Shown here: positions 55,248 through 60,186 of the stretch, one piece after another
Layout of the letters: every line of letters starts with the position of its first letter
How positions within the stretch are numbered: position 1 is the stretch's first letter
Assembly (NCBI GenBank): GCA_944392695.1
Contig: CALXXN010000001.1
Coordinates: forward strand, 62,001 to 126,000
DNA: 64,000 bases
Direction: 5' to 3'
Source: an uncultured Spirochaetales bacterium
GTDB lineage: Bacteria > Spirochaetota > Spirochaetia > Sphaerochaetales > Sphaerochaetaceae
The notes under the pieces: model-generated
What the model was told of the DNA's origin: nothing
Database searches by the model: none
The model's input: the letters and a program-made list of their open reading frames with translations, nothing else
Made by a program: the position numbers and the translations under genes

Positions 55248-56921
55248 TCACTTCTTCTTGAGGTATTTGACGCTGTCGAGGGCGACAGAGGCGATGATGA
55301 TCGCACCCTTGAAGACGAACTGGAGGTTCGTATCAATGCCCAGGAAGGTCAGGCAGTATGTGAGGCCAGTGAATATGATGACACCTATGATGGCGCCACT
55401 GATCTTTCCGATACCGCCGTTGAATGAGATGCCGCCGACAACACAGGCTGCGATGGCATCTGTCTCATAACCCTGGCCAGTACCTGCGGAGGCGTTGGCG
55501 CGGAAGGCCTCGAGGAAGGCTCCACAGCCATAGAAGATGCCGGCCATGATGAAGACTCCCATCGTGACAGCGAAGACCGAGATGCCAGACACTGCGGCGG
55601 CTTCGCTGTTGCCACCAACTGCATACATGTTCTTTCCGAAGGTCGTCTTGTTCCAGATGAACCAGGCGACCACGCAGGCGATGACTGCTGGGATGATCAG
55701 CTTCGGGAAGGTTATGATCTGTCCTCCGACGACTCCAAGCGTCCATCGTCCTCCAATCAGGTCACGGATCCCGCTGTCGATGGAACCGGTAGGCGTACCA
55801 GAGGTTCCGAAGAAGAGGAGTCCGTAGATGATCAGCTGTGTCGACATCGTCGAGATGAAGGGATGGATCTTGAGTTTCGCAGTGAATACACCAGAGAAAC
55901 AGGCGAAGGCGACACAGAAGATGATTGACAGGCACAGCGCGATTACGACCCTGAGGCCCATCGGGATGGCGTCGAAGTTCCATGGCTCCATGCCAAAGAG
56001 GCTTACGATGTTGGTGCCACGGTGCAGGAGGAGTCCTGTCGTCACAGATCCGAGGGCGACCATGCGGCCTACACTGAGGTCGGTACCTGCAAGAAGGATC
56101 AGGCCTGCGACACCAAGCGCGTAGAACATCCTTGTCGAGCACTGCTCGAGGATTGTCAGGATGTTAGGCAATGAGAACAGCGTACCACGTCCTTGGAGCG
56201 GAGCCACGACGACACAGACGATGAAGAAGATGATGACTGCGATGTAGAGGCCATTGTTCAGGAAGAACGTGGAAAGCTTGAAGCGGTTGATGTAGTCCTT
56301 CCATTTGAGCTTCATGTCCTCGCTGAACTTGGTCTTGCCATTGCGAAGCGACCTGTTTGTCTGCACATGGTCGACATAGGCCTGGTTCTTGTTGGCCTTG
56401 GCCCTGTCGCAGGCAGTCGTCATCTGGCTCTTGGCATCAAAGAGGGCGGACTTCTTCTCGTACTTGATGGTATCGACTTCAGCCTTGCGCTCTTTAGGAT
56501 CAGAGATGTCCAGTGCTGCTATGCGGCGCTCGGTTTCAGCATTGATCTCATTGACCTTCTTCTTGTAATCATCCTTGAAGCGGGCAATGTTCGCATTCTC
56601 TTCTTCTTCGACTGCCTTCTCGACTTTCGTGGCGATGCTGTTGACGTAGCTGACCGCCTCTTTTGCCAGTGCGTCGATTTCGCTCTTATGGGCTGCGGCA
56701 TCAGATTTGGCGGCTTCAAGTTGCTTCTTGCAGTCGTCAATCATCTTGCTCTTGGTCTCCGAGGAGAGCATCTTGCTCTTCTTGGTGGCCGTTATCTGCT
56801 GTTTGAGCTCGCTGATCCTCGTCACACCAGTGCTGCGCAGTGAAGCAAGACGGACCAGGTAGTCCTGTACCTTCCTGTCTTCCCCGATGGCTGCCGGCGT
56901 GTTCTTGATTTCATTAGCCAT
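55248..56921 (-). CDS. mglC: Galactose/methyl-galactoside ABC permease MglC with large N-terminal extension
   Basis: 557 residues, against about 330-340 for ordinary MglC. Residues about 1-207 form a charged, Ala/Lys/Glu-rich segment with long predicted helices (ELKQQITATKKSKM, KVEKAVEEEENANIARFK) and no membrane helix. The permease follows (about 220-557), with GVAGLILLAGTDLSVGRMVAL, the EAA-like VVGGISFNGGIGK and IIASVALDSVKYLKKK end typical of this family. ATG 56921 is chosen by AAAGGAG; the farther ATG would add eight residues. Third gene of mglBAC. Confidence 0.9.
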   Translation of the reverse strand: MANEIKNTPAAIGEDRKVQDYLVRLASLRSTGVTRISELKQQITATKKSKMLSSETKSKMIDDCKKQLEAAKSDAAAHKSEIDALAKEAVSYVNSIATKVEKAVEEEENANIARFKDDYKKKVNEINAETERRIAALDISDPKERKAEVDTIKYEKKSALFDAKSQMTTACDRAKANKNQAYVDHVQTNRSLRNGKTKFSEDMKLKWKDYINRFKLSTFFLNNGLYIAVIIFFIVCVVVAPLQGRGTLFSLPNILTILEQCSTRMFYALGVAGLILLAGTDLSVGRMVALGSVTTGLLLHRGTNIVSLFGMEPWNFDAIPMGLRVVIALCLSIIFCVAFACFSGVFTAKLKIHPFISTMSTQLIIYGLLFFGTSGTPTGSIDSGIRDLIGGRWTLGVVGGQIITFPKLIIPAVIACVVAWFIWNKTTFGKNMYAVGGNSEAAAVSGISVFAVTMGVFIMAGIFYGCGAFLEAFRANASAGTGQGYETDAIAACVVGGISFNGGIGKISGAIIGVIIFTGLTYCLTFLGIDTNLQFVFKGAIIIASVALDSVKYLKKK

Positions 56922-56941
56922 TTCTCTCAACTCCTTTTTTA

Positions 56942-58435
56942 TCACAGGTACATCGCAGAAAGGCGTAAAAGCTCTTCCTGGTCTGTGTTCTTCGTCTCAA
57001 CGATGCCGGCGAGGCGGTGGTTGGACATGACAGCTATGCGGTTCGTGATACCAAGTATCTCGGGCATCTCGGACGAGACGACTATGATGGTCTTGCCGTT
57101 CTTCGCCATCTCTATGATCAGCTGGTAGATCTCATACTTGGCACCAACGTCGATACCCCTGGTTGGCTCGTCCATCAGGAAGACATTGGGTTCACGCTCC
57201 ATCCATTTGCCGATGATGACCTTCTGCTGGTTGCCACCAGAGAGGGCGGTGATCAGCTCATCGCATGAAACACACTTTGTGTTCATCTGCCTGATCTGGC
57301 GGTTGGCGGCCTCTGTCATCATGCGGTTGTTCAGGATGCCGTGTGACTTGTAGTTGTCAAGATTCGTGATGACGGTGTTGAACCGGATCGTATCCTTTCC
57401 AAACATGCCATTGAGCTTGCGCTCTTCTGTGACAAGGGCGAAGTCGTAATCCATGGCGTCCTTCGAGGAGCGGAAGCGCAGGAGCTTGCCATCGAGGATG
57501 ATACGGCCTGAGGCGATTGTACGTATGCCGAAGAGAGACTCCAGGAGCTCGCTGCGTCCGGCTCCTACCAGTCCATAGATGCCGAAGATCTCTCCTCTGC
57601 GCACCGTGAAGGAGATGTCTTCGAGCTTTGGTTCGAACTTTGTCGTCAGGTGGCTGACTTCCAGGTAATCACGTCCGGGGACGTTGTCGACATCAGGGAA
57701 CCTCTTGTCAAGTGAGCGGCCGACCATGGCGCTGATCAGCTCGTTCATGTTGGTCTCCTTCGTAGGCTTGGACATGATCATCTTGCCATCACGGAGGACG
57801 GCGACCTGGTCGCAGACCTCGAAGACCTCATCCATCTTGTGTGAGATGTAGATGAACGAGACCCCCTTCGCCTTCAGCTCGTTGACGATTGCGAAGAGCT
57901 TCTTGACCTCGCGTTCGGTCAGGGAGCTCGTCGGCTCGTCAAGTACGATGATTTTCGCGTTATAACTCACAGCCTTGGCGATTTCCACCATCTGGCGTTG
58001 TGAGACAGACATCGTCCTCATGATAGTCGTCGGGTTGACGTTCATGTTCAGTGATGCGAAGAGCTTGTTCGCCTCAGTCAGCATCCTGTTCTCATCAATG
58101 ACACCGGCCTTGGTCGGGTAGCGGCCTAGGAAGAGGTTGTCTGTGACAGAGCGGTCAAGGCACTGGTTGAGTTCCTGGTGCACCATTGCCACGCCGTTCT
58201 CCAACGCTTCCTTGGGGCTGTTGAAGTTGATAGGCCGTCCATCAAAGATGAACTGTCCCTCATCCTTTGCGTAGATTCCGAAGAGGCACTTCATCATCGT
58301 GGACTTTCCAGCACCGTTCTCCCCCATGAGGCCAAGTACGGAGCCCTTGTCCAGCGTCAGGTTGATGCCATCGAGGACCTTGTTCTTCGCGAAGGATTTG
58401 GATAGGTTCCTGATTTCCAGTATCGTGTTGTCCAT
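56942..58435 (-). CDS. mglA: Galactose/methyl-galactoside ABC transporter ATP-binding protein MglA
   Basis: 497 residues, two fused nucleotide-binding domains as in sugar CUT2 importers. First domain: Walker A GENGAGKST near residue 38 and VLDEPTSS near 165. Second domain: GLVGAGRSELL near 288, a degenerate Walker A, and LSGGNQQKV near 400, followed by FLMDEPTRGID. It powers uptake of galactose and beta-methyl-galactosides. Twenty bp separate its stop from the mglC start; the gap to mglB is about 170 bp with two hairpins. Confidence 0.95.
   Translation of the reverse strand: MDNTILEIRNLSKSFAKNKVLDGINLTLDKGSVLGLMGENGAGKSTMMKCLFGIYAKDEGQFIFDGRPINFNSPKEALENGVAMVHQELNQCLDRSVTDNLFLGRYPTKAGVIDENRMLTEANKLFASLNMNVNPTTIMRTMSVSQRQMVEIAKAVSYNAKIIVLDEPTSSLTEREVKKLFAIVNELKAKGVSFIYISHKMDEVFEVCDQVAVLRDGKMIMSKPTKETNMNELISAMVGRSLDKRFPDVDNVPGRDYLEVSHLTTKFEPKLEDISFTVRRGEIFGIYGLVGAGRSELLESLFGIRTIASGRIILDGKLLRFRSSKDAMDYDFALVTEERKLNGMFGKDTIRFNTVITNLDNYKSHGILNNRMMTEAANRQIRQMNTKCVSCDELITALSGGNQQKVIIGKWMEREPNVFLMDEPTRGIDVGAKYEIYQLIIEMAKNGKTIIVVSSEMPEILGITNRIAVMSNHRLAGIVETKNTDQEELLRLSAMYL

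Positions 58436-58603: not shown

Positions 58604-60186
<1,583 letters not shown>

Follow-up and report, generated by a model that had tools for sequence, protein, structure and literature searches.

A subfamily of Mgl-type sugar importers in Spirochaetota and Bacillota with a permuted MglB and a predicted helical stalk on MglC

The usual picture of the Mgl class of importers comprises a permease, an ATPase and a binding protein, and says little about the inner face of the permease. One of the closest described systems is the TpMglB-2 importer of Treponema pallidum, which may be a glucose route of this organism. Homologues of its permease, the tp0686 product, are reported in treponemes and Gram-positive bacteria, and an N-terminal extension of the permease is not mentioned in the accessible part of that report (PMC4990184). 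In the 64,000-nucleotide stretch of spirochaete DNA analysed here (the window), the genes of a related importer are arranged in the order mglB, mglA, mglC on the minus strand (Table 1), and about 207 residues of the permease precede its first transmembrane helix (TM1).

The window locus

The presence of an MglA-like double ATPase and an MglB-like binding protein in genes adjoining mglC identifies the system as an importer of the MglBAC type. From residue 212 onwards (212-557), the permease matches MglC (NF007014) best among the NCBIfam families, with 276.7 bits that fall short of the equivalog cut-off of 386 bits, and PF02653 (BPD_transp_2) at residues 253-545 passes its cut-off (104.6 versus 26.8 bits). 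The best NCBIfam matches of the neighbours are MglA (676.9 bits; equivalog cut-off 828) and MglB (111.7 bits; equivalog cut-off 420), neither of which reaches its threshold. The 402-residue MglB carries PF18610 near its C-terminus (109.9 bits, cut-off 36.8 bits), and this placement assigns it to the Type Ic (TpMglB-2-like) proteins, whose circularly permuted fold it would share. The best 80 of 98 relatives from a scan of genome contigs are all spirochaetes by record title or taxonomy; the nearest named ones are Candidatus Aphodenecus pullistercoris, at 81%, and Bullifex porci, at 75%. No relatives were found in two scans of viral contigs.

A first, sequence-only reading of the locus had proposed a single frame for extension and permease, a start at the distal ATG, and an extension spanning 56300-56921. 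The frame is indeed free of stops over all 557 residues. The extent of the extension also stands, with its lower end one base off: since residue 207 ends at 56301, the extension is 56301-56921. As to the start, nine bases separate an AGGAG from the ATG at 56921, and the preference for this codon is borne out by the candidates near the junction, GTG 186, ATG 203 and GTG 239, none of which has a Shine-Dalgarno run of at least 3. The run is 3 long at ATG 51 and ATG 167 and 4 long at ATG 60, well within the extension. An untranslated extension, with MglC starting near residue 203-208, could make use of the ATG at residue 203. The Shine-Dalgarno sequence at residue 1 and its absence at residue 203, together with the dN/dS of the extension and a homologous extension in Bacillota (both below), speak against such a misannotated start, to which we give next to no credence.

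Table 1. Features of the window locus, in window positions
Feature	Position	Strand	Basis
MglC-type permease, 557 residues	55248-56921	-	single stop-free open frame
N-terminal extension of the permease, residues 1-207	56301..56921	-	open frame, purifying selection, AlphaFold2
Shine-Dalgarno AGGAG of the distal ATG	56931..56935	-	
Permease core of MglC, residues 208-557 and stop, PF02653	55248..56300	-	
mglA-like double ATPase, adjoining gene upstream, same strand	56942..58435	-	
mglB-like sugar-binding protein, circularly permuted TpMglB-2 type, PF18610 at residues 326-393	58604..59812	-	
Predicted helix a1, residues 16-30, then conserved LRxxG turn	56832..56876	-	
Predicted helix a2, residues 33-48; missing with the start of a3 in 7/109 aligned rows	56778..56825	-	
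Predicted long helix a3, residues 54-135; break at residue 78 in the full-length model	56517..56762	-	
Predicted long helix a4, residues 142-192, conserved YExKSALFDAK motif	56346..56498	-	
Predicted helix a5, residues 199-213, probable interfacial (elbow) helix ahead of TM1, putative role	56283..56327	-	

Distribution and linkage with the permuted MglB

The sequence-only reading implied that the extension is peculiar to this locus. Instead, it is common to an MglC subfamily across Spirochaetota and is also present in Bacillota. The extension is matched in 60 of 139 genomes of the order and in 72 of 390 sampled Spirochaetota genomes of 85% or more completeness. Matches to the permease core at E 1e-40 or better occur in 137 of these 390, which fall into 73 with the extended type and 64 with short matches only. 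In the extended group, identity to the window permease is 72% or more and open frames are 466-815 residues long, bar pieces of broken or split copies; in the short group, identity is at most 49% (one fragment 55%) and open frames have at most 435 residues. The long frame is present in all 73 genomes with the extended permease type. The only one of them missed by the extension search is G187, a single contig of 1,139,633 bases that we take to be a small T. pallidum-like genome, where the extension is recognisable at only 21% identity and the permease is 73% identical. The statement that ordinary MglC has no such domain agrees with the short forms in the E. coli and Fusobacterium loci and in the 64 spirochaete genomes. 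An 815-residue frame (L150, G422:C29:20500-29500) joins a shortened mglA to the later portion of the extension and the permease; an extra permease piece lies in a different frame, and the whole looks like a decayed extra copy. G422 also holds an intact copy on C63.

In Bacillota, the same extension is borne by a 549-residue permease from a plasmid of Agathobacter rectalis (identity 25% in the extension, 59% in the permease), and the permease gene adjoins those of an MglA and a PF18610-containing MglB. At L155, 7831-13316, this plasmid operon is followed by genes for a response regulator, a sensor kinase and two more substrate-binding proteins. The extension is also found on two human faecal contigs filed as 'Bacteriophage sp.' (L159 and L160; MT838761.1 and MT836545.1), in one case cut by the end of the record. 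Both records contain apparent bacterial sugar-transport genes. A profile of the spirochaete extensions scores 84.0 bits with A. rectalis and 81.3 and 49.0 bits with the faecal contigs, the best of 900 shuffled sequences reaching 9.8 bits. In two plasmid records the long form is annotated as a plain permease.

PF18610 exceeds its cut-off in 75 of the 390 genomes. It is present in 72 of the 73 genomes with the extended permease versus none of the 64 short-only genomes (Fisher P ~1e-73, kinship not corrected for). In the one exception, G136, the contig ends inside mglA. A Subdoligranulum plasmid, with a short permease and an MglB devoid of PF18610, agrees with the linkage. PF18610 occurs apart from the extended MglC in three genomes (G297, G322 and G434), which have no permease match at E 1e-40; in the stretches inspected no mglA or mglC frame was seen beside their permuted mglB genes (L162, L163 and L164), which possibly encode sensory proteins. 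Sub-cut-off matches to PF18610 occur in five genomes with short MglC. In the two examined, the ordinary MglB proteins of L138 and L141 (G421 and G477), the weak match lies near the N-terminus, at about residues 69-130 and 36-98. A circular permutation predicts this position, which supports a true permutation in the TpMglB-2 type and an origin of its permuted segment from MglB itself; another gene has been suggested as a possible source (PMC4990184).

In an unrooted tree of 45 chosen permeases, one branch splits 31 extended from 14 short forms with support 100/100, the bootstrap being not fully settled. This tree had been rebuilt without four far outgroup permeases and without the long row L146; when the four outgroups are included, support for the extended rows is 70/99. 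An unrooted tree does not separate gain from loss of the extension; a single gain is favoured by the short permeases of E. coli and Fusobacterium. On comparative grounds, we regard as firm the existence of an Mgl-type importer subfamily in which two features are linked, a permuted MglB and a putative helical stalk of about 200 residues on MglC.

Predicted shape and conservation of the extension

AlphaFold2 predicts, with high confidence, an all-helical structure for residues 1-225 (mean pLDDT 91.9, pTM 0.77), and 37% of the residues of the extension are charged (net +8), so that its earlier description as helix-rich and charged holds. The predicted fold consists of two short helices and a long antiparallel pair, with a short helix leading into TM1. 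A full-length model has near-identical helices (block pLDDT 84-95 across residues 11-200). Its permease half is poor (block pLDDT 42-81, pTM 0.58), and it gives no reliable placement of the stalk as a result. We infer that the stalk is on the cytoplasmic side, because TM1 aligns with TM1 of short MglC. The most hydrophobic 19-residue stretch averages 0.56 in the extension versus 2.89 in TM1. Residues 33-76 are missing in seven of the 109 aligned rows (L046, L049, L057, L061, L062, L071 and L085), which are permeases of the Treponema bryantii type, two of them titled as this species. This loss, which removes a2 and the start of a3, is a natural deletion variant that is handy for tests. The tip is shortened in two rows, L086 and the T. 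pallidum-like L135.

Purifying selection acts on the extension. Among 11 close relatives, its median dN/dS is 0.14 (from the 25 of 55 pairs whose dS is finite, the 30 saturated ones being left out), and that of the permease is 0.06 (46 of 55 pairs of the same relatives), so that the extension evolves roughly twice as fast. Across the whole set, 20 of 21 closer pairs are listed, with values from 0.02 to 0.32 for the extension. The commonest letter accounts for a mean of 54% of rows in the extension versus 87% in the permease (109 rows, five truncated rows excluded and 20 duplicates collapsed). Within residues 1-207, all 70 aligned sequences share N189, R193 and E201, and 35 positions are conserved across the spirochaete and Bacillota groups. 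R29, K47, A71, K79, A89, Y92, Y154, K157, R193 and E201 are among the residues retained by at least two of the three Bacillota-type rows. Conserved residues cluster at the TM1 junction and in the first helices.

Searches for relatives returned no Pfam family over its cut-off. The best match in the window protein, DUF7286, is also the best sub-cut-off Pfam match in 12 of 70 extensions, and nine other families match one member each. In NCBIfam nothing comes close to a cut-off. Against PDB sequences, the best E is 0.27 for the extension and 0.46 for its profile. Against PDB folds, Foldseek with the extension gives E 0.07 at best, for a designed bundle, and VIA-align gives a best Z of 10.2 over 82 residues, below the tool's caution of about 13 for bundles of helices, so that we claim no structural relative. 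With no convincing match in Pfam, NCBIfam or the PDB, the extension is, judged by its sequence, a subfamily-defining domain. No description of it was found in the accessible parts of the literature on MglC and Mgl importers, and a literature match for MglC with an N-terminal extension concerned plant galactolipid synthases, not this domain. The sequence-only reading had named a widespread known MglC domain as its counter-case; the extension is widespread (73 of 390 Spirochaetota genomes, and Bacillota), with no sign of being known.

Possible roles of the stalk

The sequence-only reading had suggested that the extension may contact MglA or a cytoplasmic regulator, or may gate transport. Possible counterparts of the stalk were sought in the neighbouring genes. 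In 56 loci, with flanks of up to ~4 kb of which many end at contig ends, mglC is present in 54, mglA in 52 and mglB in 49. Nothing else recurs widely: a frame that resembles a LacI-type regulator by eye is found in 9 of the 56 loci, and other clusters are listed in 3 or fewer. No separate conserved partner gene was seen in these loci among frames of 90 residues or more, and the idea of such a gene was dropped. An altered MglA was also rejected as the counterpart. Comparison of 81 MglA rows from extended systems with 13 others (7 partial rows dropped) reveals no inserted domain; there are 39 clade-specific residues, as any clade may have, and one column that differs in length.

We favour, with a probability of about 0.4, the view that the stalk is an arm on the cytoplasmic side, in contact with MglA or with the inner MglC surface, and that it stabilises or tunes the transporter, because the conserved residues gather at the TM1 junction and in the first helices, and because no other partner gene is seen to travel with the stalk. 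The permease of this importer class is usually a dimer, in which case two stalks would stand beside MglA. The conserved parts at the TM1 junction and the first helices would rest on MglA and the inner MglC face, and these contacts may make the complex more stable or modulate it. For the tip (about residues 109-150), which is shortened in the T. pallidum-like genome, we propose a role mainly as a spacer. The lack of an inserted domain in MglA, the poor permease half of the model, the fast evolution of the extension, the seven rows lacking residues 33-76 and the 21% identity in G187 speak against this explanation.

The main rival, which we consider doubtful, is a role as a sensor domain: upon binding of a cytoplasmic signal, such as a phosphorylated metabolite, a nucleotide or a protein, e.g. 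HPr, the stalk would slow sugar uptake or open it. It owes its rank to the over-representation of basic residues among the conserved ones, since Lys and Arg make up 13 of the 35 conserved positions (Asp and Glu 5) versus 42 of all 207 residues of the extension; however, basic residues would also suit a location near the membrane, and a ligand site is only putative. The top Foldseek rows for the full-length model belong to XPR1, a transporter whose N-terminus carries an SPX sensor, but they fall short of significance (E 0.12 or worse, probability no higher than 0.25), and for the extension alone XPR1 is absent from the 50 matches listed by Foldseek and VIA-align. A more far-reaching version, by analogy with SPX in phosphate transporters, is quite unlikely: the stalk would be a previously unnamed bacterial sensor domain whose conserved basic residues read an energy or sugar signal in the cytoplasm and which gates sugar uptake from inside, with one origin together with the permuted MglB, and kept in the T. 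pallidum-like genome.

Rod-like hairpins often serve as tethers, and the stalk might link the transporter to some other component of the cell, such as a glycolytic enzyme, a chemotaxis assembly or a further copy of a transporter. The three genomes with permuted mglB genes away from mglA and mglC are compatible with a second, sensory role of MglB, yet no conserved neighbour gene was seen in the flanks covered for the 56 loci, and we hold a tether to be rather improbable. Finally, stalk and permuted MglB may be linked by history only, through inheritance of one ancestral operon as a whole, with a minor or generic role for the stalk. The one-branch separation in the tree makes a single event sufficient, and the predictions place the two parts on either side of the membrane; purifying selection and the long frame in 73 of 73 genomes, including the small T. 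pallidum-like one, argue against a useless stalk. We judge this account about as improbable as a tether. As it concerns the linkage, it is compatible with the favoured view of the stalk.

Across two phyla, a whole subfamily appears to retain both a rearranged binding protein and a large arm that is predicted to be cytoplasmic. Should this arm regulate the transporter or assemble it, sugar uptake in spirochaetes and in some gut Bacillota would have a new control point. Transporters with an SPX domain, such as XPR1, bear an N-terminal cytoplasmic helical domain, as is predicted for the extended MglC, but the match of their fold to the stalk is not significant. The E. coli MglBAC galactose/glucose importer shares the gene order mglB-mglA-mglC and the permease core with TM1, but its MglC is short (open frame of 339 residues) and its MglB has no PF18610 at E 0.01. 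The TpMglB-2 (Tp0684) operon of T. pallidum shares the permuted MglB with PF18610, a 'Type Ic' binding protein in the available text of the original report (PMC4990184). The T. pallidum-like G187 has an MglC of the same extended type and keeps the stalk, in an importer that may be the glucose route there.
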